From Planctomycetota bacterium (GTDB lineage Bacteria > Planctomycetota > Phycisphaerae > Sedimentisphaerales > Anaerobacaceae): DNA of 39,189 nucleotides. Positions 303-33,820 of this stretch are shown in pieces (within the stretch, counting starts at the first letter, position 1; each line of letters starts with the position of its first letter). The notes beneath the pieces were generated by a model, which worked only from the letters and a program-made list of their open reading frames with translations, was not told the origin of the DNA and made no database searches. The position numbers and the translations under genes are program-made. The DNA lies in the NCBI GenBank assembly GCA_014384025.1, contig JACNGQ010000149.1, positions 1 to 39,189 of the forward strand, given 5' to 3'.

Positions 303-2465
303 CTAATTTTCTAAGTTAGCTAATGCTTCCTTCAGTATCTTCGTCACCCGCTTCGTCTGGACTTCCAGAATCTGCTTCCCAAGCTCCGGACTGGCAAATT
401 TCCGCGGGTCCTTACCGCCGACCCCGACCGGCCAGCGGTCTTCGGACAACCTGTCCATCTGCACCAGCTCCGGCCGAAGAGCCATCACGAGCGAAGTCTC
501 ATTCATCGCCGCATGGTCAACCTGGATACCCATCCCCTGCTTATCGTATTCACTGCCCCAGCATACGAACGTCTCAAGCCCGAACTTCTCCTTCCAGTCG
601 GCTGCGTTACTTCTAAAAAAGCCGGTCGAAGGCCCATGCCCATGCGCAACTACGATACGAAAGCCCGCCCGCTTAAGCTGCTTTAATGTCGCCTCGATAA
701 TCGTCCTGAAAGTCTCCTCCGGCACCCAGTATGCACTGCCCGTAAGCTGGTGGTTCTTATATCGTTTGTCCTCCGACATACCCTCGCCGAGCGTGTCCAT
801 CCCGTACAGCTCTTTTCCGTCAACCTCTTCCATCCGGTCCGGCCCCAAAAAAAGCATCGGAAGAACTATCCCCCCCGCCTTCTGCGCAACGCCAATAAAA
901 AATCCATACGACTGCAATCCGTCCGAGCCGATAGGCAAATGCTCCCCGTGCCACTCCAGCGTCCCAAGCGGCAGATATGCAATCGGAGCCGCCGCAATCC
1001 GCTCGCGAAACTCCGCTGGCGTCAATTCCGCATACAATACCTTCTCACCAGGCTTCTCCGAAATCGAAACCGCACCCCCAGTCGCCTTCGATACCTCCTT
1101 ATCCTTGTCGGCAAACGGCAAAGTCTCCGGAACAACCTTTATCTGCGTCGTGAGCTTATACGGAATTCCTATCCCGCTGTCAAAAGTCAACTCGACAAAA
1201 AAGGCCGTCCAGCCTTTGTCCGGCTCAAGGACCTTTGCCAGATACGTCCCCATGCCCCGGCCGCGAGAACCGATATCAGTGCTCTTCCACGCCTTCCCGA
1301 TTGTCTCAAGACGAAAATCACGCGCATTCTCATTCGACGCCTGCCACAATTTTACGGCCTGCGGCTTTGTTTTCGTATTGACCTCTATCGCGCCGTCGTC
1401 CCGCACCTTCCAGCTAAACTCCGGCAGAGGCGCACCCCGCAATATGGCCGCATAAAACGCCAGCAGGCTCTCAATCGCATCCGAGTCGCCGAGACCGTGG
1501 TCGGTATTTGGAACGTATCGAAGATATTTCGGGCCTATAAGGTCGTGAAAATAAAACTGGGCCGAATCCGAAACAAAAAACTGGTCCCCGCTCGAATTTA
1601 TAAGATACTTTGGAATCGTATATCTATCGCGATAGTTATACGGATCGATAAATGTCCTAAGTTTCGCGCCGCCCGGCGTATCCAGCCGGCTGAAAACATC
1701 CAGGTCCTGATAATCCTTAATGGCATCGGAATAAAAACCGTACGCGCTGAAATGATGTTTCATCTGCTCGGCCATATTCAATACGTCAATGACCGCCGGA
1801 ATTATCGCAACGACCCGCTTATCGACCGCCGCCGTAAGCCAGGTTGTCCAGCCTCGCTTGGAACCACCGGATACCACAAACTCATGTATATGAAGTTTGT
1901 TATCCGTAACCGACGAGATATGGCTGTGAACCGTGTCCATCGCCCGCACGGCGCTTTTAACCATCGGCAAAAGCAGCGGCCACGTACTATCGCCCGTACT
2001 CATATATTTATCGAATGTGTAGGCAATTATCCCATCTTCAGACCGCCCCCCGCCGCCATCGGGAAATACCAGCGGCTCGTTCGGAACCATTTTCAGCTCC
2101 GCTACAACCGTTTTGCTCTTCAAGGCCATACCCGCTATCATAGAATCCGCCTTACTCGGGGCAGGGCTGCCGTTACTTCCACCCGTTATCCAGAGCAGCG
2201 CCTTATCGGAAGCTATCTGGTCCGGCATGACTATCGTCAACCAGTGTTTCCAGATAGTCCTGTCCACCTCGTCCCTGCTTCGCCACGCCTGCGAGGTCAT
2301 ATCCAGAACATAGGCCGTGTAACCTTCTCCTTTGATGGTGTTCACGACACTGTAGCTGTAGTTGTCATCCGGCGCTTTAACATAATCATCCAGCGGCGTG
2401 GCAACCGCAAACCGCCCCGCGACAAGAACCAGCAGTAAAACTATAAGGCTATATCTCGATTTCAT
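303..2465 (-). CDS. PhoPQ-activated pathogenicity-related protein fused to a creatininase-family domain
   Basis: The 720-residue protein starts with a signal peptide (about residues 1-22). Residues about 25-450 match the PhoPQ-activated pathogenicity-related (PqaA-type) alpha/beta-hydrolase family: GGSKRGW at 200-206 gives nucleophile Ser202, GDQFF lies at 293-297 and a TDHGLGD stretch near 321 could give the acid/His. Residues about 475-720 look like the creatininase/amidohydrolase family: LPLGTLEWHGEHLPIGSDG (498-516) with Glu504, His509 and Asp515 as likely metal ligands, AHGHGPS near 607, and HAAMNETS near 651 with Glu656. An exported two-activity enzyme is likely; the substrate is unknown. 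The sugar-isomerase-like gene lies 43-50 bp upstream in the same direction, so co-transcription is plausible. The long open frame on the opposite strand is a shadow. Family calls come from motifs; coupling of the activities is inference. Confidence 0.85.
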   Translation of the reverse strand: MKSRYSLIVLLLVLVAGRFAVATPLDDYVKAPDDNYSYSVVNTIKGEGYTAYVLDMTSQAWRSRDEVDRTIWKHWLTIVMPDQIASDKALLWITGGSNGSPAPSKADSMIAGMALKSKTVVAELKMVPNEPLVFPDGGGGRSEDGIIAYTFDKYMSTGDSTWPLLLPMVKSAVRAMDTVHSHISSVTDNKLHIHEFVVSGGSKRGWTTWLTAAVDKRVVAIIPAVIDVLNMAEQMKHHFSAYGFYSDAIKDYQDLDVFSRLDTPGGAKLRTFIDPYNYRDRYTIPKYLINSSGDQFFVSDSAQFYFHDLIGPKYLRYVPNTDHGLGDSDAIESLLAFYAAILRGAPLPEFSWKVRDDGAIEVNTKTKPQAVKLWQASNENARDFRLETIGKAWKSTDIGSRGRGMGTYLAKVLEPDKGWTAFFVELTFDSGIGIPYKLTTQIKVVPETLPFADKDKEVSKATGGAVSISEKPGEKVLYAELTPAEFRERIAAAPIAYLPLGTLEWHGEHLPIGSDGLQSYGFFIGVAQKAGGIVLPMLFLGPDRMEEVDGKELYGMDTLGEGMSEDKRYKNHQLTGSAYWVPEETFRTIIEATLKQLKRAGFRIVVAHGHGPSTGFFRSNAADWKEKFGLETFVCWGSEYDKQGMGIQVDHAAMNETSLVMALRPELVQMDRLSEDRWPVGVGGKDPRKFASPELGKQILEVQTKRVTKILKEALANLEN

Positions 2466-13073: not shown

Positions 13074-15485
13074 TCAGTTATCTATAGGCCCCGTCGAATT
13101 ATCTCCGCTCATTTCCCACCATAATCTCGGATAACCCGACCTTTCGGTTATCTTCCAAATGTCATAGATTCCATTTACGCTCTCATCAACGAAGTCCCAG
13201 CCGGCTTCTATGAAGGTTTCAGCCGTTTGCATCCCCGCTGTCGTCTTACCTTCTCCACCAAAGCTCGTAGCCTTCCCGCTCGTATCGACATCCCAGAAAC
13301 AACCGCTGATTTCGCGGTTCAAATTGTTCCCTACGAGGCCTCCGGTTTGAAAACCCCCCAGGACGGCTGTTATCGAATAGCAATTATCTATTGTACCTTC
13401 GTGACGTCCGCCGGACCTGGTGTTGCTCCCCACCAGGCCGCCTACATACCACTGGCCGGAAACACTACCCATGGCATAGCAGTTGTTTATCTCGCCGTCG
13501 GAATTCCGTCCCAAAAGACCGCCCACTGCATCTACGCCACTGACGTTTGAATTCGAATAACAAGCCATAACCATGCCGCCGTTTCTCCCCACAAGGCCGC
13601 CGGAAGCGTCACCTTCAGAGCCAATACTGCTGCTCGAACGGCAACTTATAATGGTGCCCGAATTTTCGCCCGCCAATCCACCAACATTATCATATCCATT
13701 GATGTTCCCTGCAGCATAACATCTCTCGATACCGCCCCACTCGGACAGCACAAAATCCAGCCCATCTTCCGGCCGGAATCTGAAACCATCGTTCTTTCCT
13801 ACCAGCCCGCCGATTCGGTCATTGCCGAAAACGTCCGCTGCAGCATAGCAGTCTGTAATTCGGCCGTTATTATTCCCCGCCAGAGCGCCTACGTAATCAT
13901 CTCCTGAAACACTGCCGCCCTCAACGTAACAGTTTGTTATAACCGCCACGTCTGAGTATCCGACAAGACAACTGTTAAAATCGCCTCTTACTATATCCAA
14001 ATCAGGATTAATCAATCCCAAATTTTTGATCTGCGCACTGGCTGCAAAGGCGAAGAGCCCTGCGTAATCTCTATACATGGAAGTGTAGCTGAGGTTTGAA
14101 ATAGTATGACCGTTGCCGTCAAATACACCACGGAATGGATACCATTGACTTCCTATAAAGTAAAACTTAACACCGGCCAAATCAATATCGTCAATTAACC
14201 TGAAATGCGACGACATCAGTTGCAGGTTATCGCCGATACTGTTCAATTCATCGGCAGTCGAAATAAGGTAAGGCTCATCAACCTGCCCTGTTCCACCGGA
14301 AAAAGTCGGCAATTCCGGCAAAGTTGAAAGCTGCCAGAAGAGAATCGGATATCCTCCCCCATCAGACTCCGCCCAGTGATCACCGGGGCCGTCCTGCGCA
14401 CCGACAAAGTCCCATTCTGCGTCTATAAACGTATTTGGATCCTGCATTTTGACCGTCGTCTTACCGAAACCGCCGTCACTTGTTAACTGGCCGCTGGTTT
14501 CAATGTCCCAGAATGACATCCAGACCGCATCTCTTAAGGGTACGCCTGCCCGACTACCTTGATTACTTCCTGATCCCACCAGGCCGCCAACTTTCATTGT
14601 TCCCGAAACGTCGCCAACTGAATAGCAGTTGATGATTGTACCGCCGCTTCCAGCTAAGCCCCCGACGTCTCTATGACCTGAAACGCTCCCTCTCGAATAG
14701 CAATTGACAATTGTGCCGTTGTTATTTCCCACAAGGCCGCCAATAGAGCGGTCAATACCCGTGACATCAGCGGTTGAATAGCAGTGGTTGATGGTGCCGC
14801 GGCTGTCGCCCACCAGGCCGCCGACATCATCACGTCCAAAAACCTCACCTGAACTGAAAGAGTTTGAAATTGAGCTACGATTATTTATCGCTACCAGTCC
14901 CCCGACACTATCACTGCCCGAAACGCTCCCGTTAAAATAGCAATCCGAAATGTTGCTGTTAACATAACACACCCCCACGAGGCCACCGACCCCTATTCCA
15001 CCCGAAATGCCGCCGCCTTCGCAATAGCAGTTGACAATAGAACCTAATTCAAACCAACCCGCTAACGCACCTATGTAGTCTCCTGCTCCAGCATCAACAT
15101 TAAAGCCAATCAATCCCAAATCTTTGATTATCGCATCCATAGCAAAGCCAAAGATACCGGTAAAACCTCTGTACATGGAAGTATAAGTAAAATTTGAAAT
15201 TGTATGACCGTTGCCGTCAAAAATTCCCGTAAAGGCATTAATATGATCGATACCTATTATATTGAAATCCGTTCCCTTATAGCCGCTCAAATCAATGTCC
15301 CCCATGAGCTTGAACTGCTTGTCCCAATCATTGGGTTCGGCACCAATCGTATTCATCTGCTCGCCTGTGTAAATCAAATAGGGATCCTCGGCTGTACCAC
15401 TGCCGCCGCCGTACTTCGCCTGAGCAGGTAAGGTCAGAAACAACACACACAACAGCCATCTTAAAAGATTTGCCTTCCCTCTCAT
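13074..15485 (-). CDS. Large secreted GLUG-motif repeat protein
   Basis: The 803-residue protein starts with a signal peptide (MRGKANLLRWLLCVLFLTLPAQA). It contains many GLUG-type repeats with the core GGLVG-N and units of about 25 residues such as NCYSRGSVSGHRDVGGLAG. It is built as two halves, each opening with a G-GT--DPYLI-T--E-N-IG strand (near residues 26-50 and again mid-protein) and closing with a FWD-(I/V)-(T/S)SG-GKTT--MQ-P/A-TFI-A-WDF cap. GLUG proteins are surface or secreted beta-solenoids, sometimes adhesive. No dockerin, PEP-CTERM or anchoring motif is visible at the C terminus. Confidence 0.88.
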   Translation of the reverse strand: MRGKANLLRWLLCVLFLTLPAQAKYGGGSGTAEDPYLIYTGEQMNTIGAEPNDWDKQFKLMGDIDLSGYKGTDFNIIGIDHINAFTGIFDGNGHTISNFTYTSMYRGFTGIFGFAMDAIIKDLGLIGFNVDAGAGDYIGALAGWFELGSIVNCYCEGGGISGGIGVGGLVGVCYVNSNISDCYFNGSVSGSDSVGGLVAINNRSSISNSFSSGEVFGRDDVGGLVGDSRGTINHCYSTADVTGIDRSIGGLVGNNNGTIVNCYSRGSVSGHRDVGGLAGSGGTIINCYSVGDVSGTMKVGGLVGSGSNQGSRAGVPLRDAVWMSFWDIETSGQLTSDGGFGKTTVKMQDPNTFIDAEWDFVGAQDGPGDHWAESDGGGYPILFWQLSTLPELPTFSGGTGQVDEPYLISTADELNSIGDNLQLMSSHFRLIDDIDLAGVKFYFIGSQWYPFRGVFDGNGHTISNLSYTSMYRDYAGLFAFAASAQIKNLGLINPDLDIVRGDFNSCLVGYSDVAVITNCYVEGGSVSGDDYVGALAGNNNGRITDCYAAADVFGNDRIGGLVGKNDGFRFRPEDGLDFVLSEWGGIERCYAAGNINGYDNVGGLAGENSGTIISCRSSSSIGSEGDASGGLVGRNGGMVMACYSNSNVSGVDAVGGLLGRNSDGEINNCYAMGSVSGQWYVGGLVGSNTRSGGRHEGTIDNCYSITAVLGGFQTGGLVGNNLNREISGCFWDVDTSGKATSFGGEGKTTAGMQTAETFIEAGWDFVDESVNGIYDIWKITERSGYPRLWWEMSGDNSTGPIDN

Positions 15486-15551: not shown

Positions 15552-17963
15552 TTAGTAATCACGAACGATAATCGCATCTTCACCTACCAGATAACGGTCT
15601 GAACCTGAGACCTTGAGATTATAGACCTTGCCTGCATAATGTACTGGCCTTTTAGTCACGCTTATAATCCCAATCGGGCCTTCTAACGTCTTCAGTTTTA
15701 TTCCCGATTTTAGATCTTGCAGCGAGAGCCATTGCCCGGATTCCGCCATGAAGTAATGATTTTCAGCTACGCTGATACTGTTTCCACTCTGGAGCAAAAC
15801 ATCATAGCACGCGAATATCCCTTCGTGCTCCTCTAATTTTTCGATTTGCGCAGTAGTGTTTGTCAGCCAGGTGACTTTACCAATTGTCCGGCCTGCGGCA
15901 ACTTTCGAGATTTGCACAAGTGCCCCATCTACCCACACGGGCGTATCAGCGAGAAAACACCCCCTGCCCTTAGGCGGAGGAACTGTTGTAAATGTCCATA
16001 CGTTACCGGTTATTATCTCGCCCTCGCTATCGACCTCATTAATCCGCCAGTAGTAAGGCCCAATGTCCCAACTGAGACCTCCGGGAGGAGTATAGCTGGT
16101 GGCAGCCTGGCGGCCGCGATATACGCCGGTCGTATTTGATGTATCGGCATCAGCAACAGCATCGATATCAACACCGAAGTAAACATCGTGAGATGAGGCA
16201 TTTAAGCCGGAGGTCCAGCTCAATTGAATATATACATCAACGTTAAAAGCTCCGTCTGCCGGACTGGGATTGGAAGCCTGGCCGGACAAATGCGGAAGTA
16301 ACTGTAGTGACAGACTGGCCTGAGGTGTTCCGCCATAGGCCCCCATATTAATTCGGCCCCCATTGGGAAAACGCTCAAGGCCAACGGGCTCGTCAGGACT
16401 GCCCGCATCAATACACGGACTGCCTATCGTATCAACAACCCAGTCTCCGCCATTCGGCTCCCATCGGCCCGCCTGAGATTTCAGATGGAAGTCGCCGTTC
16501 TCGGGATCCGCAAACAATGGATCACTGTCGAGATTGCCTTCGCCGGGCCAGCCATTTTGCACATTACTGTAGATGACCTCTATATTACCGCTTTTACGAC
16601 CTCTTTCTGTGCCTTCAGCCTGTATTTCATCCGGCGTATCAGCCCAGAGAATACAGTTGGCCAGCGTAAGGTGGCCATTCTGGATATTTATTCCGCCCCC
16701 TGCATGTTCTGCGAAGTTTGTACTGAACGTACAATTAAGCAGTATCGAGGTGCTGTTGCTAAGGTTCTCCATCCCACCGCCGTCTCTGGCCCTATTGCCG
16801 CTGAATATACAATTATTCATGCTCGTCTCACTTCCGTTGTAATTGTACAAGCCTCCTCCGCTTCTTAATACCGAGTTTCCATTGAAAATGCAGCTAAGTA
16901 ATGTCGGCTTGCTGCTGTTGTTGTACATTCCACCTCCACTTCCTTCTGTCGAGTTACTACCAAACATACAGTCGGCCAACATTGGAATACTTTCTTCGTT
17001 GTACATCCCACCGCCGCCGCCACCACCTGCCGAGTTATCGGCAATTGTGCAATTGGTCAGCGTTGGATCACTCTTTTCGTTATATATCCCCCCGCCACTC
17101 ATACCTGCAGTGTTTTCGGTAAATATGCAGTTGAGCAATACCGGCTTGCTGTTGTTGTTGTACATCCCGGCGCCACTGCCACCAACGGAATTCCTGCTGA
17201 ACGTGCAATTTGTCAGCATCGGGCTGCTATTATTATTGTACATCCCGGCACCGCCTGCGGGTGCATCGTTGTCGCTGAACGTACAGTTGAATAGTACCGG
17301 ATTACTGTTATTGTTGTACATCCCGGCTCCAATGTCTGTTGCCAGGTTATCACTGAAAGTACAATTCATCACCGTCGGGTTACTATTATCGTTGTACATT
17401 CCGCTGCTGTGATCGTAAGGCGTTATCGTCATCCTTGCACTGATACCACTACCGGTGATAGTGAAACCATCCAGAACAGCCGTCTCATCGGTTCCGCCGG
17501 CCTCTACGACATGATAGCTGTTGTCCTTCACATTATCGATATCGAACAACTCCGGATTATCGTCGGCGTTAAGGTCACCACTTAGAATGCTTTCGTATTG
17601 GTTGATGTCTCTAACGTCAGTCTGTCCCCGATGGCTGCTGAATTGTGCGACATAGCCGCCTTTAATAGTCACACCGTTCATAAGTTGAAACGAAGCCCTG
17701 ATATCTCCCGGCATGATACCAAGCCCCCTATCAGGCGTATAGATACCCTGGGCAACGCGTATCTCCACCGGCTTATCAGAACAACAGGCAATTAATAAGG
17801 CATCCTGCAGGGAGTTAATAGCATTCACCCAGCTTGTACCGAGATTTAAACCGTCGGCATCGTCATCCACATAAATGACCTCGCCTGTCGCAGCCGTGCA
17901 TAACGCTACTAAAAGATACAGCATGCACACCGGCCATCTTACAAAATTTGCCTTCCCTCTCAT
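15552..17963 (-). CDS. Secreted right-handed beta-helix protein with C-terminal Hint (intein-like) domain
   Basis: A signal peptide starts MRGKANFVRW. A DDDADGLNLGTSWVNA segment is followed by about nine beta-helix turns of roughly 24 residues (pattern NP-L-NCTFS-N-A---GGGMYNN), as in polymorphic outer-membrane or parallel beta-helix proteins. Residues about 560-665 form a fibronectin-like domain (SNPSPADGAFNVDV ... YYWRINEVDSEG). Residues 669-803 match a Hint domain: CFLADTPVWVDG with Cys669 at the N-S acyl shift position, block-F-like SVAENHYFM with His736, WLSLQDLKSGIKL, and VYNLKVSGSDRYLVGEDAIIVRDY-type ending. The usual terminal His-Asn is Arg801-Asp802, so Asn-dependent cleavage is unlikely. 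Surface display or thioester-type self-processing is inference. Confidence 0.85.
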   Translation of the reverse strand: MRGKANFVRWPVCMLYLLVALCTAATGEVIYVDDDADGLNLGTSWVNAINSLQDALLIACCSDKPVEIRVAQGIYTPDRGLGIMPGDIRASFQLMNGVTIKGGYVAQFSSHRGQTDVRDINQYESILSGDLNADDNPELFDIDNVKDNSYHVVEAGGTDETAVLDGFTITGSGISARMTITPYDHSSGMYNDNSNPTVMNCTFSDNLATDIGAGMYNNNSNPVLFNCTFSDNDAPAGGAGMYNNNSSPMLTNCTFSRNSVGGSGAGMYNNNSKPVLLNCIFTENTAGMSGGGIYNEKSDPTLTNCTIADNSAGGGGGGGMYNEESIPMLADCMFGSNSTEGSGGGMYNNSSKPTLLSCIFNGNSVLRSGGGLYNYNGSETSMNNCIFSGNRARDGGGMENLSNSTSILLNCTFSTNFAEHAGGGINIQNGHLTLANCILWADTPDEIQAEGTERGRKSGNIEVIYSNVQNGWPGEGNLDSDPLFADPENGDFHLKSQAGRWEPNGGDWVVDTIGSPCIDAGSPDEPVGLERFPNGGRINMGAYGGTPQASLSLQLLPHLSGQASNPSPADGAFNVDVYIQLSWTSGLNASSHDVYFGVDIDAVADADTSNTTGVYRGRQAATSYTPPGGLSWDIGPYYWRINEVDSEGEIITGNVWTFTTVPPPKGRGCFLADTPVWVDGALVQISKVAAGRTIGKVTWLTNTTAQIEKLEEHEGIFACYDVLLQSGNSISVAENHYFMAESGQWLSLQDLKSGIKLKTLEGPIGIISVTKRPVHYAGKVYNLKVSGSDRYLVGEDAIIVRDY
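16660..17410 (-). repeat. Beta-helix coding repeats, about 72-75 nt per unit
   Basis: Recurring plus-strand blocks such as TTGTTGTACATCCC and GTACAATT/GTGCAATT appear roughly every 72-75 nt. They encode the YNNNS and NCTF turns of the beta-helix. Confidence 0.75.
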
Positions 17964-22596: not shown

Positions 22597-22625
22597 TTGA
22601 TTTGACACTTATTATATGGTAGAAT
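22597..22625 (+). promoter_or_regulatory. Candidate promoter of the first pseudopilin gene
   Basis: TTGATT (22597-22602), a 17-bp spacer and TAGAAT (22620-22625) lie about 60 nt before the ATG at 22688. A TTGACA at 22602-22607 is also present but only 12 bp from the same -10. Confidence 0.4.
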
Positions 22626-22687
22626 GCCAGAATACGGAATGTAGTTTCCGAAAAACTATTTTTTACAGTAGAAATTGGAGCTTCATC

Positions 22688-23488
22688 ATGAGGAGACAAA
22701 GAGGGTTTACCCTGATAGAACTTTTAGTGGTTATTGCAATTATCGCACTATTGATGGCGATATTGATGCCCGCACTGGCCAGGGTCAAGAAACAGGCCCA
22801 GTCGGTCACCTGCCAGGCGAAACTCAAACAATGGGGTCTTATATTCAAGCTATATACGGACGAGTATGACGGCTATTTCAATGAAGGCTGGGGCGTTGGT
22901 GAGACTACACTCTGGCCGAATGCAATGCGTTCGTATTACAAGAACGACTGGGGTATGCTCCTGTGCCCGACGGCAACCAGAGAAATGTTAAACGATGCCG
23001 ACTGGGGTACATTTAAAGCGGCTGTCCGTACTATGGCAACACCAGAAGGCGGTTCACGCCGTTATGTATTCAGCTACAGTATAAATTCCTGGACCAATTA
23101 TATGCACGCCGCCCGCGGAGACCGCATGGAAGAATGGTTCTGGAAAAATGTCAATAATGCCAAAAATATGAGTCAAATTCCCGTCTTCGGTGATTCCACA
23201 TGGCATGATGCATGGCCGCGCCATACCGACCAGCCCATGGAATTGAGGGATGGTTTCGGGATAGGAGACCAGGGCACAAGCGGGGAAATGAACCATTTCT
23301 GCATTGACAGGCATAACGGATTCATAAACATGCTCTTTATGGACTGGTCCATTAGAAATACAGGCCTAAAAGAGGTGTGGACCTTGAAGTGGCACCGTGA
23401 CTTTAACACGATGGGCCCGTGGACAAGAGCCGGCGGCGTAATGCCAAGCGACTGGCCGCGATGGCTGCAGCGATATAAAGATTACTAA
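22688..23488 (+). CDS. Pseudopilin-like protein (prepilin cleavage/methylation, H-X9-DG type), copy 1
   Basis: The Met at 22688 with GGAG upstream is chosen over an earlier in-frame Met at 22616. MRRQRGFTLIELLVVIAIIA is a class III prepilin signal cut between Gly and Phe, followed by a hydrophobic helix and LMAILMPALARVKKQA. A globular domain of about 220 residues follows, ending DRHNGFINMLFMDWSIR ... WTLKWH ... KDY, like the planctomycete family of type II secretion-type proteins with an H-X9-DG motif. These occur in large paralog sets in this phylum; their assembly role is not settled. It is paralogous to the next gene and ends at an intrinsic terminator. Confidence 0.88.
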   Translation: MRRQRGFTLIELLVVIAIIALLMAILMPALARVKKQAQSVTCQAKLKQWGLIFKLYTDEYDGYFNEGWGVGETTLWPNAMRSYYKNDWGMLLCPTATREMLNDADWGTFKAAVRTMATPEGGSRRYVFSYSINSWTNYMHAARGDRMEEWFWKNVNNAKNMSQIPVFGDSTWHDAWPRHTDQPMELRDGFGIGDQGTSGEMNHFCIDRHNGFINMLFMDWSIRNTGLKEVWTLKWHRDFNTMGPWTRAGGVMPSDWPRWLQRYKDY

Positions 23489-23587: not shown

Positions 23588-24337
23588 ATGCGCAAAAGAG
23601 AAGGATTTACATTAATCGAACTTTTGGTCGTCATAGCTATTATCGCCCTGTTGATGGCAATTCTTATGCCCGCCCTCCAGCGGGTAAGAAAACAGGCAAA
23701 GGTGGTTCTCTGTCGAACCAATCTCAAGGAATGGGGTCTCGTCTGGGCAATGTACACAGACGAAAACAACAGCAAATTCCCCGACTATATGGCCGGCGAT
23801 TGGATGCAGAAACTGATAGATTACTACTCTAACAGTGAAAAACTCCTTTACTGCCCGATGACCACCAAAACCATGGAAGAAGGCGCTCCCGTCCGTTATT
23901 CAATTCTCCCTACGGGCGGAAGCTATTCACTGAACGAGTGGATTTATGACAGCGACGATACCGGTGGCGGCCGCAAGCTCGAGGAGTACTGGAGAAGCAC
24001 CAATCATAAAGGCTTGAATAACGTCCCTGTTATGGCAGATGGCGCCTGGCGTGCTGACGGCCAGCCCTACGAAACCGATGCACCTCCGTCATACGATGGA
24101 GAGCCGCGTACAGGAGTTGGCACATCCGGAGATGAAATACGTATTTTCGCAATCAACCGTCACGATGGATTTGTAAACGTCCTCTTTATGGACTGGACCA
24201 CCAGAAAAGTCGGAATCAAAGAATTGTGGACTTTGAAATGGAATACCGACTATAACATTGCCGGCCCCTGGACTACAGCCGGCCTCGCACTACCGGGCGA
24301 CTGGCCGCAATGGATGAGACATTTCAAAGACTACTAA
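23588..24337 (+). CDS. Pseudopilin-like protein (H-X9-DG type), copy 2
   Basis: MRKREGFTLIELLVVIAIIA is a class III prepilin signal. The N-terminal 70 residues and the C-terminal NRHDGFVNVLFMDWTTR ... WTLKWN ... WPQWMRHFKDY region closely match the preceding gene, while the middle is shorter and different (249 against 267 residues). The conserved ends and variable centre suggest a shared assembly scaffold with a divergent exposed part. GAAGG lies upstream of the ATG, and the gene closes with its own terminator. Confidence 0.88.
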   Translation: MRKREGFTLIELLVVIAIIALLMAILMPALQRVRKQAKVVLCRTNLKEWGLVWAMYTDENNSKFPDYMAGDWMQKLIDYYSNSEKLLYCPMTTKTMEEGAPVRYSILPTGGSYSLNEWIYDSDDTGGGRKLEEYWRSTNHKGLNNVPVMADGAWRADGQPYETDAPPSYDGEPRTGVGTSGDEIRIFAINRHDGFVNVLFMDWTTRKVGIKELWTLKWNTDYNIAGPWTTAGLALPGDWPQWMRHFKDY

Positions 24338-27203: not shown

Positions 27204-29183
27204 TTATAATCCGAGTTTCACTTGCTCGTTGAATGTTCGCAACTGCACGCTTATAGTGTTTAGCACCCAGTCGATATAGTGCAATTTGTGAGTGGGCCGA
27301 TGGTGCCCTTCGTTCATCAGGCCGTTCCTTACGGTTTTCAAGAATCTGCTTATTGTTTGTGAGCTTATCTTAGTAGGTTCCGCAGCCCATTGCTTTAATT
27401 CTTCATATTCCAGTCGTAATTTCCTGCTGCTGCATAACTGTTCAGCGGTTAAATAATCACCGGGATTGTAATCAAGCTGAAGACCTTTGAGACACATGAT
27501 TAACGGCTCATAATTGGTCTTTTCTCCAAGACGAATAAATTTATACTGATGGACATGCGTAGTCGCCTGGGCCGGCGGCTTATCTGCTATACCCCCTCCG
27601 CCAAGATACCACCTGCGCTTACTCGTTCTGGCAAACACAAGCTCCTCGCCATTCGTTTCTTCGCTCTGTTCCCCGGCGGAATCCGACAAAGCCGATGAAA
27701 AACGATTGGAATATTGTGTTATCTCATCATGACCCATTCTTGAAACCCAAAATCTGCCTGAGTCCTTTCGTTCAGGACCGCCGCCGAGCAAGAGTAAGCA
27801 CTTAACAAAACCCAGAGGCAATATTTTTTGGTTATCAATCTGTCTTTTTCGAAGCTGGAAAGAAAGATGCAGGCTATGTGGGCGAACGTCATAGAAATTG
27901 GTTATCTCGTGTATCAACTTATTGAGAAGCCACGGATCCGAAGTTGCCGGCCGGGAAAGTTCTCCCCGAATGTTCAGCCGTCCCGGAGCAAGTTCCAGAA
28001 AACCGCACCGCCGGCCATGATCGGTTGAGCCTGTGTGATCGTCGATGTATCCACCGAGTTTCCAGGATAAAACATCCAGGTGAAAATCATAGAAATACTT
28101 GAATCCGTCATATATCGCGTCTTTCTTGTTTTGTATGCTCCTTTGGGGATTGACTGCCGCAGGACCAAGATTGCTCAGCTCAATCTCTGCGCCTAATGGA
28201 ACCAGCCCGGGCTGAAGACTCGAATAAATTAGTCTCAGCTTTGCTTGTGCAATGCGTGCATCAAACATACTATTCGATGCACGTACCGCGTATTTGACAT
28301 AATCAATGAGGTCGTGCTTGTCACACGGCATTGTTTGAAGACATTTTCTAATTATCAAATCTACGGCCTTGCTGTTTGCGTTTACCATTTGCAAAGCCGC
28401 AAGAATACTGACTGACTGCTTAAAATATCGCTCTGAAATATGCATATGCTCAAGTTCAAACCGGTATCTGGACTGGATTTGATCATCGAGCTGATTGAGC
28501 AGAACCTGCCTGACAACCAGACTCAGATAGTTCTTCATAAACGGCCTGGTTTCCGGGTCACTGTATAAGTGTTTTATGCTCGGCCGGGGCCTGTCCAGCT
28601 CGTGCTCAAGATAATAATCGCTGACGGCATCGGTGTGATAATGGCTCATAACAAGATCACGCTCGGTCGTCGCGAGCAGCTCCCGGTTCGCACGACGCTC
28701 CGATTCTGCGTCCGCCGTACGCTCGCCGGGACGGACATGTCTTTTGATGAATTTCTCTATGCGTTTTCGAAGCCAAAGCTCGTGTATAAGATTAACATGG
28801 AACCTGTCGCCAAAGTGCTGCTTCATCGAGCTGAGAGTTACAAGGTAAGCATGTGCTTTGACCGATCCATTTGCCGTGTTGACTTGCACCATTTCTCTTT
28901 CATAACGCTTGCCTTCATACCTGTCGATTTCAGCCATCGCCCAGCCGGGAATATCATAGACCACCAGCCCTTCGATTTTTGATGACGGTGCTGAAACGGC
29001 ATAGAAATAGACATTGTCCGGGCTGAGCTTTCGATAATGGGCAAGAAAGGCCGGCTCCGCCCAAAGGGTCTCGCCGTCAACTTTGGATGCCTTCCTGCTA
29101 AAACTTAAACCGCTGACGGATTTGAAGATTCGACTGTCCCGCAGCGAGCCGTAGATAAACAGATTTACCTTTCTCTCGTTCAT
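27204..29183 (-). CDS. Gamma-glutamylcyclotransferase-like domain fused to an amidoligase-like region
   Basis: Residues 5-145 are a GGCT (AIG2-like) domain: LFIYGSLRD (9-17), EGLVVYDIPGWAMAEIDRYE with the candidate catalytic Glu90 in YEGKRYER. The middle (150-320) is helical with no recognised family. The third part has LGAEIELSNLG (330-340), FLELAPGRL (395-403) and HSLHLSFQL (436-444), which resembles the GxExE / E-x-P / HxH order of glutamine-synthetase-fold amidoligases. Amidoligase and AIG2-like genes are known to associate, which supports the reading, but this domain call is an inference. AGGA lies 4 nt before the ATG. It is the last gene of the operon starting with the class I aminotransferase. 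No signal peptide is seen, so it is cytoplasmic. Confidence 0.7.
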   Translation of the reverse strand: MNERKVNLFIYGSLRDSRIFKSVSGLSFSRKASKVDGETLWAEPAFLAHYRKLSPDNVYFYAVSAPSSKIEGLVVYDIPGWAMAEIDRYEGKRYEREMVQVNTANGSVKAHAYLVTLSSMKQHFGDRFHVNLIHELWLRKRIEKFIKRHVRPGERTADAESERRANRELLATTERDLVMSHYHTDAVSDYYLEHELDRPRPSIKHLYSDPETRPFMKNYLSLVVRQVLLNQLDDQIQSRYRFELEHMHISERYFKQSVSILAALQMVNANSKAVDLIIRKCLQTMPCDKHDLIDYVKYAVRASNSMFDARIAQAKLRLIYSSLQPGLVPLGAEIELSNLGPAAVNPQRSIQNKKDAIYDGFKYFYDFHLDVLSWKLGGYIDDHTGSTDHGRRCGFLELAPGRLNIRGELSRPATSDPWLLNKLIHEITNFYDVRPHSLHLSFQLRKRQIDNQKILPLGFVKCLLLLGGGPERKDSGRFWVSRMGHDEITQYSNRFSSALSDSAGEQSEETNGEELVFARTSKRRWYLGGGGIADKPPAQATTHVHQYKFIRLGEKTNYEPLIMCLKGLQLDYNPGDYLTAEQLCSSRKLRLEYEELKQWAAEPTKISSQTISRFLKTVRNGLMNEGHHRPTHKLHYIDWVLNTISVQLRTFNEQVKLGL

Positions 29184-29230: not shown

Positions 29231-29953
29231 TCAGTCTTTTCGGATCTGTTTCCACAACCTGAATAGCTCTTTAAATGCACGAAGAATTACATGCAAATTC
29301 GCTCCGGTTTGTGCCCCTGCCGTCCGCGGATAATGATGGACGCCCTGCTGTACCACAAGATAACCTTTGCGAACAGCACGAGCTAAAATTTCAGCATCGA
29401 TAAGGGCCCCGGCACTTACTAACTTAATGTTATCAAATATTTCCCTTTTGTATAACTTGAAAGCACAGTCGATGTCGCGGATTTTCATGCCGAACAGCAG
29501 GCAAACAAGTTTCGTCCAGCACCAGCCGTTGATTTTACGTATGAGGTTGTCCTGGCGGTTCAATCGATAGCAGCTAACAATATCGTATTGACCCATTAAT
29601 CCAAGCAGTGCCGGCATCTCATTAATATCGAACTGGCCGTCCCCGTCGGTATAAAAGACAAGCTCTTTTGTCGCCGCGTTGAAACCCGATTGAAGCGCCG
29701 CCCCGTATCCAAGATTGCCCCGATGATGCACAACTTTGATCCTGTCATTTCCGCGGGCAAGCTCATCGGCAATCTTGCCCGTATCGTCGCTGCTGCCGTC
29801 GTCAACGATAATTACTTCAAAGTCGGCGTTGAGCTTTTCCAGTACGACAACTGCCTTTTCTAATACGCCGGCGATATTGTCCTGTTCGTTATAGCAGGGA
29901 AAAAAAACGCTGATGGAAACATTGTGTGCTGGCTCAGTCATAATAAAAAACAT
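29231..29953 (-). CDS. Family 2 glycosyltransferase (dolichyl/undecaprenyl-phosphate sugar transferase type)
   Basis: The 240-residue protein has the GT2 fold: SVFFPCYNEQDNIAGVLEK, FEVIIVDDGSSDDTGKIA, YTDGDGQFDINEMPAL with the nucleotide-sugar/metal DxD, and DIDCAFKLYKREIF. It lacks C-terminal membrane helices, like single-domain polyprenyl-phosphate mannosyltransferase-like enzymes. It probably makes a lipid-linked sugar donor. An in-frame Met at 29941 (MTEPAHNV) may be the true start, as neither start has a strong ribosome binding site. It follows the GT-C-like membrane protein (28-bp gap), which is the expected user of such a donor. Confidence 0.88.
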   Translation of the reverse strand: MFFIMTEPAHNVSISVFFPCYNEQDNIAGVLEKAVVVLEKLNADFEVIIVDDGSSDDTGKIADELARGNDRIKVVHHRGNLGYGAALQSGFNAATKELVFYTDGDGQFDINEMPALLGLMGQYDIVSCYRLNRQDNLIRKINGWCWTKLVCLLFGMKIRDIDCAFKLYKREIFDNIKLVSAGALIDAEILARAVRKGYLVVQQGVHHYPRTAGAQTGANLHVILRAFKELFRLWKQIRKD

Positions 29954-29981: not shown

Positions 29982-32564
29982 TTACCACCTCTTGATTTGA
30001 GACACCCTTATCAATTCACTTACATATTTGCTTTGCAGAGCTCGGTAAAGGTTCACCAACTCCGTGTTTTTCTGAGCTTGGGCGACATTCTCCAGATAAT
30101 AGCCTGCTAACCGTCCCGCTTCAAGCCTGTCACGATAACCGTCCTCATTGGCCCATTTAGCCTCATTGTCTGTAAACCTCTTGATATAATCTTCGCAAAA
30201 CTTTTGAACGTGTGGTCTTATCTCGACGAACCTCGAAGCTAAAAGTATTATTTCAATCATAGCCGCAGGCGATTCATTCAATTCAAAGGCCTTGACGGCA
30301 AAATCAAAACCCTTCTTCTTCTCTAATATCCCTATACGATAGTAAAGCCAGCTGCGGGCGCAAATAAGGTTCCGGTGATAATCGTCCGGGTAAAGGGTTT
30401 TGCCGTCAAATATACCATCAAAGAGCGCCTTGCCCTGCGGTGTTGTTATATCGACGTACAATCTCTGCTTATCATTGAAGAAAACAACACGCCAATTCAT
30501 ATTACGTTCAATACCCTGCAAGGCGTGATAGGATGTTTTAGTATAATATTCATCCCGCGGAGGCATGCTGCAATTTGACTGAGGCATTAACACTAACCAG
30601 ACGCCATATTTCCTTAGCTGCTCATCCATCCACTGACCGATCTTTATATAATCGTCATTAGTTAAATCCTGCCCCCTGGATGCGGCTCGTGCCAGCCTCT
30701 GACCTGTGTCATAGCCCCCACCCATAATATCCGTCCAGACATCAAAGGCTTCCCGGTTATAAGCCGCCTGTGCCCTGCCGTCCATAAATAACTGTAAAGG
30801 TATTTTGCCCGTATTCGGGTCGGGCTCCTGACCGAAAGCTACAAAACCACCCTCTGTCCAGTAATTAAACATATTTCCTTTTAACTTGTTATCTTTTATG
30901 AATTTGCAGGCGTAAAACGGCTTTTGCCCCGAGTCGGTCATCCGCATAAACATCGAAGTTAATTTCGGGTCGCGAGGCCATGAATCCAGATAAATACGCT
31001 TAAATTTAAGGCCCCACCATACGCCGAAATACATCACAAGCATCGCACCCGACAAAACAAAAAATAATTGCTGATTATAACTCATCACCCCAACAGCCAG
31101 ATGTTTGTTTTTCCGAAAGTTTGTAAATGCTGAAATTGCACGAACAAGCTGGTCAATCAACATTGCTATAATCGGGCAGGCCGCGATGGCCGCCACAGGA
31201 ATAAATCTGCGCGAACGAACCGCCATATAAATCGTAAGAGCGGCTATAAGCATCAGTGACATATCTATTTTCGGCCACTGATAACCTATGGGAAGTTTCA
31301 TTTTCCGCCTGGTTTGCTGGTCAACAGACTTGGAAGTTTTTATCAGCACAATAGCCCAGGCCAAAAGAGCCGCCCAGCCCATAATGTACACCACTAAAAA
31401 AGGCACCGCAGTACCGACCGGATTGGTCCAGTCAAAAGCCGGATGCCACTCGTGAATGTTACGCCATCTTGCTGCGTGCTCGCTCACACTGATAGCAAAA
31501 GTATGAGTCAGGTTCGTTAAATGAAAAGGATTGAACACAACCGTAGCCACAAACGCTGCAAAAGCAGCCCCAATAGTATGATACACGCCCTTCCATCCGA
31601 TCGAAACAAGATTGTTCTTGTAAAATACCAGCAGAATATCCAAAACTATCACGAGAATTGAAAACAGAAAGGACGGCAACGTCAAACCCGCCCTGGAAAG
31701 AACGAAATATAAGAAAGGCCAGGCGGTAACATTGTACAAAATAGCAGTCCACTTTTTATTTAAGTTGGTAAACAGATGCAAACCTATAAACGGCACAAGC
31801 ATTATGAACGCGTAGATATATCCGCCGTGGACATTGCACCAGAAAACCGCCACCGGAACAATCAGCCATATATACAAAACGTTGCGATATGTCGTAAGGG
31901 CAAGTATAAGCAAAAAGACTGCCACTAACATATTCGAAAAACCCGCCGGGCGGATATCGAGAAATGAACGTCCCGTAAACATCGCAAAGCAGGAAAAAAC
32001 CGCACACAGCCACGGATGGACACCCAGCAACCGCCCCGTGTAATAAACACAAACCACAGTCAATATGTAAATAGCAAACTTCCAATAGACCAGCGCGTTG
32101 GATGGAAAACTTACTCCGTCCGCATAGGATGATTCGGGAATCAACGAATAGAAGATAATGTGCGTCAGCCAGTTCTGATTTATCCAGCCGGTCGGGTGCC
32201 AGTATTTGACCGTTTCGATGCCGACTTTATCCGTAATCCATTGGGCCCAGTTTGGCCAAGTTTTAATCTCTTCTTCCGTCGGCCCTGCTTTATGTGAATT
32301 CACGCTGAAAGGCTCGACTGTATCAACCCCGTGATTGACAAAATGCCGCCCGCAAGCCATCGCGACCCACGTATCACCCGCGGCCACCATGTGTGTACAC
32401 GCATGAAATGTAAATATAAGCATCGCCACCCAGCAGATGACAATGGAAACACGCCGCAGATCAGAAAACATTTTACTCGTGACATGTACCTCCTGACTTC
32501 TGTCTTCTGACTTCTGTCCTCTGTTTGTCAACTTCTGATTCTTACTTTCTACTGACTCAGCCAT
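29982..32564 (-). CDS. Large polytopic membrane protein, GT-C glycosyltransferase-like
   Basis: The 860-residue protein has about 12 hydrophobic segments (first VSIVICWVAMLIFTFHAC, last near LFFVLSGAMLVMYFGVWW) followed by a soluble region of some 340 residues. The acidic AAGDTWVAMACGRHFVNHG in the first loop is where GT-C enzymes such as ArnT/PMT keep their catalytic Asp. The start overlaps the upstream aminotransferase stop by 16 bp, so translation is coupled. Residues 8-25 are coded by a heptad repeat (SKNQKLTNRGQKSEDRSQ), and Met32 could be the functional start. The GT-C assignment rests on topology and this motif only. Confidence 0.7.
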   Translation of the reverse strand: MAESVESKNQKLTNRGQKSEDRSQEVHVTSKMFSDLRRVSIVICWVAMLIFTFHACTHMVAAGDTWVAMACGRHFVNHGVDTVEPFSVNSHKAGPTEEEIKTWPNWAQWITDKVGIETVKYWHPTGWINQNWLTHIIFYSLIPESSYADGVSFPSNALVYWKFAIYILTVVCVYYTGRLLGVHPWLCAVFSCFAMFTGRSFLDIRPAGFSNMLVAVFLLILALTTYRNVLYIWLIVPVAVFWCNVHGGYIYAFIMLVPFIGLHLFTNLNKKWTAILYNVTAWPFLYFVLSRAGLTLPSFLFSILVIVLDILLVFYKNNLVSIGWKGVYHTIGAAFAAFVATVVFNPFHLTNLTHTFAISVSEHAARWRNIHEWHPAFDWTNPVGTAVPFLVVYIMGWAALLAWAIVLIKTSKSVDQQTRRKMKLPIGYQWPKIDMSLMLIAALTIYMAVRSRRFIPVAAIAACPIIAMLIDQLVRAISAFTNFRKNKHLAVGVMSYNQQLFFVLSGAMLVMYFGVWWGLKFKRIYLDSWPRDPKLTSMFMRMTDSGQKPFYACKFIKDNKLKGNMFNYWTEGGFVAFGQEPDPNTGKIPLQLFMDGRAQAAYNREAFDVWTDIMGGGYDTGQRLARAASRGQDLTNDDYIKIGQWMDEQLRKYGVWLVLMPQSNCSMPPRDEYYTKTSYHALQGIERNMNWRVVFFNDKQRLYVDITTPQGKALFDGIFDGKTLYPDDYHRNLICARSWLYYRIGILEKKKGFDFAVKAFELNESPAAMIEIILLASRFVEIRPHVQKFCEDYIKRFTDNEAKWANEDGYRDRLEAGRLAGYYLENVAQAQKNTELVNLYRALQSKYVSELIRVSQIKRW
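32494..32528. repeat. TGACTTC/TGTCTTC heptad array inside the N-terminal codons of the membrane protein
   Basis: Five in-phase heptads (TGACTTC, TGTCTTC, TGACTTC, TGTCCTC, TGTTTGT on the plus strand) are read through in frame as a polar, low-complexity stretch of the minus-strand membrane-protein gene. Confidence 0.7.
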
Positions 32565-33739
32565 TCTTCCAGTCTGTTTAAACCCTTGGTAATCTGCTCA
32601 AGCGAACAGGCAAAACTCAAACGAACGTTATTATCACAGCCAAACGGCAGCCCCGGAACCACCGCAACATTAGTCTGTTCCAGAAGCGCCTTTGCAAAAT
32701 CCATACTGCCGTTAATCTGCGCACCATTAATATTTCGGCCATAATGCCCCGAAACATCAGGGAAACAGTAAAAAGCACCCGTACTTTCCGGACATTCCAC
32801 ACCATCAATACTGTTCAGCCGTTCACACATATACTTGCCGCGACGCTCGAATTCCTGTCTCATACTCTCTATGGCCTGCTCGGCAGGCTCACCTAAAGCC
32901 GCAATCGCCGCATACTGACCGAAGGTGACGGCATTCGAAGTCATGTGAGACTGAAGGCGCCCCATCGCCTTGATAACATCAAGCGGCCCAGCCGTATATC
33001 CCAGACGCCAGCCCGTCATAGAGAATGTCTTGCTGAAGCCGTTAAGAGTCAAAGTCCTGTTGTAAGCATCATCACTCAGCGATGCAAAACTCACGAACCT
33101 GGTATCACCATAGATTAGCTTCTCATAGATTTCATCCGAGAGCACCATTACCTTTGTCCCTTCGAGTACCGTAGCAATGGCCTTCAGCTCTTCCGGTGTA
33201 TAGGTAAAACCGCCAGGATTACTCGGCGAATTAATCAAAACCATAGCCGTTTTCGGCGTAATGGCCTCTTTCAACTGCGACGGTGTCATCTTGTAGCTGT
33301 TTTTCTTATCGGTTTGAACAATCTTAGCAACCGCCCCGGCCAGCTTTATCGTCTCCGGATAAGTTACCCAGTACGGTGTAGGCAAAATAACCTCGTCACC
33401 CGGGTCAAGCACTGCCTGCATCACAAGATAGACAGAGTGTTTGCCCCCGATATTGACAATAACCTGCTCAGGGCTGTATTCGAGACCGTTTTCCTTTTTA
33501 AGCTTGTCTGCGATAGCGGCCCGCAGCTCAATCAGACCGGATGAAGCCGTGTATTTCGTCTTACCGGCCTTCAGCGCCTCGACAGCCGCCTCCTTGATAT
33601 ATTCCGGCGTATCGAAATCCGGAGCACCTGCCCCAAAACCAACCACGTCCGCTCCTTCTGCTTTTAACTCCTGCGCACGCGCCGAAACCGCCAATGTCGC
33701 CGATGGCGGCACATCCTGAGCTCGTTTACTGACTTTCAT
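32549..33739 (-). CDS. Class I PLP aminotransferase (aspartate aminotransferase type)
   Basis: Start taken at the ATG at 33739 (MKVSKRAQDVPPSATLAVSA), preceded by AAAGG; a TTG three codons upstream is possible. Class I gamma-subgroup aspartate aminotransferase motifs are seen: GAGAPDFDTPEYI, YWVTYPE, INSPSNPGG, LSDEIYEKLIYG, and LNGFSKTFSMTGWRLGY with the PLP Lys in SKT. Substrate is probably aspartate or a related amino acid and 2-oxoglutarate. It is the first gene of the operon with the GT-C-like, GT2 and GGCT/amidoligase-like genes, and its stop overlaps the next start. A housekeeping role riding in the operon is possible. Confidence 0.88.
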   Translation of the reverse strand: MKVSKRAQDVPPSATLAVSARAQELKAEGADVVGFGAGAPDFDTPEYIKEAAVEALKAGKTKYTASSGLIELRAAIADKLKKENGLEYSPEQVIVNIGGKHSVYLVMQAVLDPGDEVILPTPYWVTYPETIKLAGAVAKIVQTDKKNSYKMTPSQLKEAITPKTAMVLINSPSNPGGFTYTPEELKAIATVLEGTKVMVLSDEIYEKLIYGDTRFVSFASLSDDAYNRTLTLNGFSKTFSMTGWRLGYTAGPLDVIKAMGRLQSHMTSNAVTFGQYAAIAALGEPAEQAIESMRQEFERRGKYMCERLNSIDGVECPESTGAFYCFPDVSGHYGRNINGAQINGSMDFAKALLEQTNVAVVPGLPFGCDNNVRLSFACSLEQITKGLNRLEEWLSQ

Positions 33740-33820
33740 CTTATTCAAACCTTTCTAAATTGAATTCTAAACAACTCCTGTATTCTGTTTTAATTTAACC
33801 ACCCGACTATTAAATACAAA

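Follow-up and report, generated by a model that had tools for sequence, protein, structure and literature searches.

The window, a 39,189-nt stretch of DNA from a Planctomycetota bacterium (contig JACNGQ010000149.1), contains a gene for a 659-aa protein (27204..29183, minus strand) in which a gamma-glutamylcyclotransferase (GGCT) domain, an all-helical region and a glutamine-synthetase (GS)-fold domain are joined in a single chain. The fusion is a new domain architecture within known folds and represents a strongly conserved, apparently undescribed protein of certain Phycisphaerae. No paper on such a fusion was found in the literature searched; a prior mention in Iyer et al. 2009 (Mol Biosyst) is possible. 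In the explanation that we favour, and to which we give about an even chance, the protein is a soluble, single-copy, bifunctional enzyme that combines an ATP-dependent glutamyl-type amide ligase with a gamma-glutamyl cyclotransferase.

The reading frame runs as a single ORF from ATG to stop, in agreement with an earlier note made from the sequence alone, and it contains all three motifs quoted there (LGAEIEL, ELAPGRL, and HSLHLSF). It is a real gene and not a chance frame, since the fusion is present, by our own count, whole or in large pieces in 55 of the 60 genomes of the window's family, has full-length relatives elsewhere in the class, and shows a dN/dS of approximately 0.08–0.15 against four relatives. 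No TM-like segment was found in the protein, and a search against NCBIfam gave no match. Among 99 related genomes, 68 gave matches to the fusion. The five members of the window's family without it are G008 and G003, in which a contig end cuts the gene for a GT-C-like membrane protein, G024 and G033, which are 74% and 68% complete, respectively, and G049, where the match is a weak GGCT match only and the copy ends near a contig end. The fusion was real in all 12 genomes of families f3, f6, and f7 and was found in none of the 27 genomes of families f2, f4, and f5. A scan of 84,980 species genomes returned 111 relatives, 80 of which were kept; their titles are nearly all Phycisphaerae, Sedimentisphaerales, or Planctomycetota. 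A 392-genome sample across the phylum contained no relatives outside the window's order. A restriction of the fusion to one order was ruled out when a class-level profile search recovered full-length relatives in three families of other Phycisphaerae orders (f108, f111, and f112; E values of about 1e-130 to 1e-215), which are 33–40% identical to the window protein. Overall, full-length Phycisphaerae relatives share 33–92% identity with it. Furthermore, no homologues were found in phage records, plasmid records, or viral contigs. All conservation counts given here refer to 106 sequences, comprising 79 close and 27 distant relatives.

The N-terminal domain (residues 4–122; 28818..29174, minus strand) was assigned to the AIG2/GGACT-like cyclotransferases by both profile and fold. 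The sole Pfam match above cut-off in the whole protein was PF06094 (GGACT), covering residues 8–116 (E = 3.4e-11; 44.2 bits against a gathering threshold of 22.8), and the same family was matched in all 21 relatives scanned. In the AlphaFold2 model, VIA-align matched residues 4–122 to the GGCT fold of At5g39720 (2g0q, Z 13.6) and of human GGCT (3cry, Z 12.9, rmsd 2.2 over 104 residues). The domain shares with GGCT, GGACT, and AIG2 proteins the fold, the YG(S/T) motif, and the glutamate in YEG, and differs from them in being joined to two more domains in a 650-residue chain. Glu90, the catalytic-type glutamate of the D-x-Y-E-G-x-x-Y motif (28914..28916, minus strand), lines up with the IEG/VEG motif in AIG2 structures, and all 106 sequences have it. 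The glutamate at this position is catalytic in human GGCT (E98) and GGACT (E82); the structural matches listed include a GGACT E82Q structure. The cyclotransferase domain proposed previously therefore stands, with a score above the gathering threshold and an intact catalytic-type glutamate.

The C-terminal domain (residues 326–658; 27210..28208, minus strand) was recognized from structure. The whole-protein AlphaFold2 model, built from 79 own and fetched sequences, had a mean pLDDT of 85.3 and a pTM of 0.85, and fold comparisons were made by running VIA-align on Foldseek matches, with Z differences below 1 counted as ties. Residues ~325–657 matched Dop (9cku, Z 11.4, rmsd 4.4 over 243 residues), PafA (4bjr, Z 11.1), GshF (3ln7, Z 10.9), YbdK (1r8g, Z 10.2), GS (Z 9.8), and GshA (2d33, Z 9.6), and the superfamily as a whole spanned Z 9.0–11.4. 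Foldseek itself ranked PafA (E = 0.045) and Dop (E = 0.11). Among the 50 structural matches listed, those to the C-terminal part were all of the GS/GCS/PafA/Dop type and the others were GGCT-fold. As modelled, then, the C-terminal half is a GS fold, with Z up to 11.4, as had been expected from the order of its motifs; the Z gaps are ties and single out no nearest subfamily.

Profile methods placed the domain nowhere. PF12224 (Amidoligase_2), the family that the earlier note had proposed to look for, and other amidoligase families gave no HMM match, including in the 21 members scanned with hmmscan, and PafA/Dop/GCS-type proteins are instead the nearest solved structures; PF12224 also had no match in the window's genome, nor in the control genomes. 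PF03136 (Pup_ligase) was not matched in the fusion protein, the 21 members, or the genome, while a Corynebacterium glutamicum control was positive, and PF04107 (GCS2) was likewise not matched in the protein, the members, or the genome. No ligase relationship was detected in Pfam, NCBIfam, or PDB sequences. Further, hhalign was used to compare the C-terminal, middle, and N-terminal parts (up to 106 sequences) with sets of Pup_ligase and GCS2 sequences from Planctomycetota and with five unrelated sets as controls. Probabilities for Pup_ligase and GCS2 were below 1%, like those of the unrelated controls, with shallow profiles (Neff ~2.1–3.4), and sequence-level homology to a named ligase family was dropped as the scores equalled the negative controls. 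Too few relatives of phage amidoligases were found to build deeper ligase profiles. Because sequence methods are blind to the ligase, the case for it rests on the fold and on ordered conserved motifs.

These motifs were read against the signature that Iyer, Burroughs and Aravind (2008; PMC2588565) gave for the GS-fold superfamily. In it, strand 1 carries GhExE, strands 2 and 3 acidic residues, strand 4 [HDQ]x[NH], strand 5 and the loop preceding it an arginine each, and strand 6 Ex[RK]x2D or [QH]x4D; strands 3 and 6 are each followed by a helix, and four more helices lie C-terminal to these. Strands were assigned from the model's secondary-structure string. On the predicted strands the signature appears in order as G331-x-E333-x-E335, D381, E397, H439, R482, R523, and Q546-x-K548. 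The predicted Mg/ATP site on core strand 1, E333-I-E335 (28179..28187), belongs to G-h-E-x-E, and each of G331, E333, and E335 is kept in 79/79 close and 26/27 distant relatives. The acidic residues of core strands 2 and 3, D381 (28041..28043) and E397 in FLELAPGR (27993..27995), are both kept in 79/79 and 25/27. On core strand 4, H436-S-L-H439 (27867..27878) has both histidines in all 79 close relatives, and in the distant set H436 is found in 27/27 and H439 in 25/27. R482 (27738..27740), a candidate loop arginine finger, is present in 106/106, and R523, on strand 5 by the model, in 78/79 close and 27/27 distant sequences. On core strand 6, Q546-Y-K548-F-I-R551 (27531..27548; all these coordinates on the minus strand), the Q, K, and R are each kept in 79/79 close relatives, and the distant ones have Q546 in 26/27, K/R548 in 27/27, and R551 in 27/27. 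Model helices at 417–430 and 559–571, followed by 580–585, 587–601, 608–623, and 634–658, lie where the signature expects them. The glutamates and histidines singled out earlier are thus invariant in the close set and nearly so in the distant set; E397, H436, and H439 were numbered correctly, and the residues given as Glu332 and Glu334 are really E333 and E335.

Two motifs deviate from the superfamily. On strand 4 the first residue is kept, but [HDQ]x[NH] is replaced by H439-x-S441, with S or T in all 106 sequences, and on strand 6 the first residues fit, but Q546-x-K/R548-x2-R551 carries an arginine where the signature ends in Asp. Because no HMM or profile matched and these two motifs deviate, the domain appears to belong to no named ligase family. 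PafA/Dop (PF03136) proteins are its nearest solved folds (Z 11.1 and 11.4) and share GhExE, and strand 6 of the fusion starts with Q, as does [QH]x4D of PafA, whereas no sequence similarity was detected, the strand-4 and strand-6 motifs deviate, and the genome appears to lack Pup_ligase. YbdK/GCS2 and GshF/GshA (PF04107) proteins have the GS fold, GhExE, the strand-3 Glu, and LH on strand 4 in common with the fusion, but no profile matches, and their second strand-4 His is Ser/Thr here.

The middle region (residues 126–325, including DRFHVNLIHELWLRKRI; 28209..28808, minus strand) is all-helical in the structure models. When residues 126–330 were modelled alone (pLDDT 83), Foldseek gave a best E of 1.2 with none below 1 and VIA-align a best Z of 5.0, so neither matched a known fold, in line with the earlier failure to recognize this part. 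The failed match does not imply a new fold. The helical region may belong to the ligase half, and two full-length relatives of family f111 bear on this. In L265 (7119-9143, plus strand) and L267 (3828-5810, minus strand), a sister pair with support of 1.0, the predicted ligase residues are eroded (E335D or E333D, D381E/R, E397R/V, H439R/A, and further Q546G and E559A in L267 alone) and Glu90 is kept. Near-invariant positions changed in L265 and L267 numbered 0/20 and 1/20 in the GGCT part, 4/14 and 7/14 in the middle, and 13/61 and 17/61 in the ligase part, respectively. Enrichment of changes at the predicted ligase site over other near-invariant positions was weak (Fisher p 0.10 and 0.034). 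Such a pattern points to a cyclotransferase that can persist after loss of the ligase, with the fate of the middle region tied to that of the ligase. Ligase function has possibly been lost in this one family. Apart from these two members, the ligase and cyclotransferase sites are retained together in almost all 106 sequences.

The fusion is the last gene of a minus-strand run whose make-up had been described correctly. Upstream lie a GT2 glycosyltransferase similar to polyprenyl-phosphate sugar synthases (29231..29953; PF00535, E = 2e-28; NCBIfam relatives below cut-off), a multi-TM GT-C-like membrane protein of 860 aa with ~11 hydrophobic segments (29982..32564), and a class I/II aminotransferase (32549..33748; PF00155, E = 5.3e-80), whose gene overlaps that of the membrane protein by 16 bases. 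The membrane protein is conserved across most of the order and has no Pfam match. Operon genes in the window's order overlap or are separated by short gaps. Among the 79 fusion loci of this order, many of them cut by contig ends, the fusion is accompanied by the membrane protein in 67, by the GT2 in 60, and by the aminotransferase in 41, and the GT2 directly adjoins it in 47. None of the three genes was recognized next to the fusion in the 27 loci of other orders, where neighbours are mostly on the opposite strand, and the operon is therefore a lineage feature of the window's order and not a requirement. An alanine racemase gene lies between the GT2 and the fusion in 15 loci. Families f2 and f4 have the run of aminotransferase, GT-C-like protein, GT2, and alanine racemase without the fusion, one f2 locus having no recognized racemase there. 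Canonical alanine racemase (PF00842) is absent from 57 of the 60 genomes in the window's family, among them the window's own, and present in nearly all sister-family genomes; the D-Ala-D-Ala ligase (Ddl) is retained in the window's family, and the best Ala_racemase_N match in the window's genome lies in a 250-aa frame. Replacement of alanine racemase by the fusion was considered and rejected, as f3 and f7 carry both side by side and Ddl is kept.

In the favoured bifunctional reading, the GS-fold domain would bind Mg-ATP and phosphorylate a carboxylate, for which glutamate's gamma-carboxyl is the likeliest candidate, and the activated carboxylate would react with an amine X-NH2 to give gamma-Glu-X. 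The GGCT domain would cyclise the gamma-glutamyl group to 5-oxoproline, with Glu90 as acid/base, and free the amine. GGCT enzymes release 5-oxoproline, and in butirosin synthesis a ligase/GGCT gene pair uses a gamma-glutamyl group as temporary protection on a small amine. Here, the group could protect or mark a small amine temporarily, or could serve to maintain a pool of gamma-glutamyl dipeptides. We infer which way the C-terminal reaction runs, that glutamate is the acyl donor, and that both activities are coupled. Carboxylate-amine ligases of the GS fold activate their acid substrate by phosphorylation, in most cases at the gamma-carboxyl of glutamate, and then transfer it to an amine (PMC2588565). 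Ligase and cyclotransferase functions are also linked elsewhere, given that one GS-fold ligase family in Firmicutes has Aig2 cyclotransferase gene neighbours, for which peptide metabolites were favoured over protein tagging (PMC2588565), that a single stretch of the phage UFV-P2 genome carries genes for a COOH-NH2 ligase, an amidoligase, a GATase, an ATP-grasp protein, and AIG2, and that phage ZRK32 has been reported with amidoligase and GGCT genes. The Clostridium perfringens CJD_1902 ligase family (PMC2588565) and the phage amidoligase and GGCT clusters resemble the fusion in pairing a GS-fold ligase with an Aig2-type cyclotransferase, but do so as separate neighbouring genes, in contrast to the one chain with an extra helical domain seen here.

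The fold cannot separate a ligase from a hydrolase, because PafA and Dop are homologous and catalyse opposite reactions (PMC7947786, PMC8599861). The C-terminal domain could thus be an ATP-dependent amide hydrolase like Dop, its top match at Z 11.4, from which PafA differs by less than 1 and so counts as a tie, so that both domains would break glutamyl-type amides in sequence. We regard this as unlikely, given that most GS-fold members are ligases, that no Pup_ligase (PafA/Dop) gene was found in the window's genome, and that, among the listed ORFs of at least 70–80 aa, none next to the fusion on its own strand is a small, conserved gene of tag-like character. The two deviating motifs, and the loss of several ligase residues in L265 and L267 against 0/20 and 1/20 near-invariant changes in their GGCT part, would also suit a GS-fold part that is a non-catalytic scaffold or sensor, with GGCT the sole enzyme. 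The other 104 sequences, however, keep almost all predicted Mg/ATP residues down to 34% identity, which a dead domain would not need, and we consider the scaffold quite unlikely.

Other roles for the same activities appear very unlikely. A bifunctional gamma-glutamylcysteine synthetase/cyclotransferase that controls how much of a low-molecular-weight thiol the cell contains would fit the structural matches to GshF and GshA (Z 10.9 and 9.6) and a genome in which no GCS2 gene was found, but no second thiol-pathway gene is linked to the fusion, and we hold this role to be improbable. Amidation or de-amidation of a glycoconjugate or peptide of the cell surface, produced by the aminotransferase, GT-C-like, and GT2 proteins, a form of the amide modification hinted at in the earlier note, would account for the tight conserved operon in the window's order and for the GT9 and DUF2062 genes near some loci. 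This idea has been weakened and is now highly doubtful, as relatives in other orders of the class occur without the operon genes, the operon is present in f2 and f4 where the fusion is missing, and the protein lacks a TM-like segment. An equally distant candidate is reversible glutamylation, in which the PafA/Dop-like C-terminal domain would add a single gamma-glutamyl to lysines or another macromolecule amine and the GGCT domain would erase it as 5-oxoproline; if true, it would be a single-amino-acid analogue of pupylation in Phycisphaerae, within one polypeptide. As for the fusion itself, the presence of ligase and cyclotransferase in one chain in several orders suggests that a glutamyl amide's formation and its cleavage are directly linked in function, and makes the protein a tractable test case for the purpose of ligase/cyclotransferase pairs.

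Several other features were observed in the window. A 720-aa ORF (303-2465, minus strand) joins PhoPQ_related (PF10142) and creatininase (PF02633) domains. Two neighbouring ORFs (13074-15485 and 15552-17963, minus strand) have the identical length of 803 aa and resemble each other at the N-terminus (MRGKAN); GLUG repeats occur in one, and the other has helix-like repeats and a C-terminus that is Hint/intein-like by eye. Finally, two adjacent related pseudopilin-like genes (22616-23488 and 23588-24337, plus strand) carry an N-terminal methylation motif.
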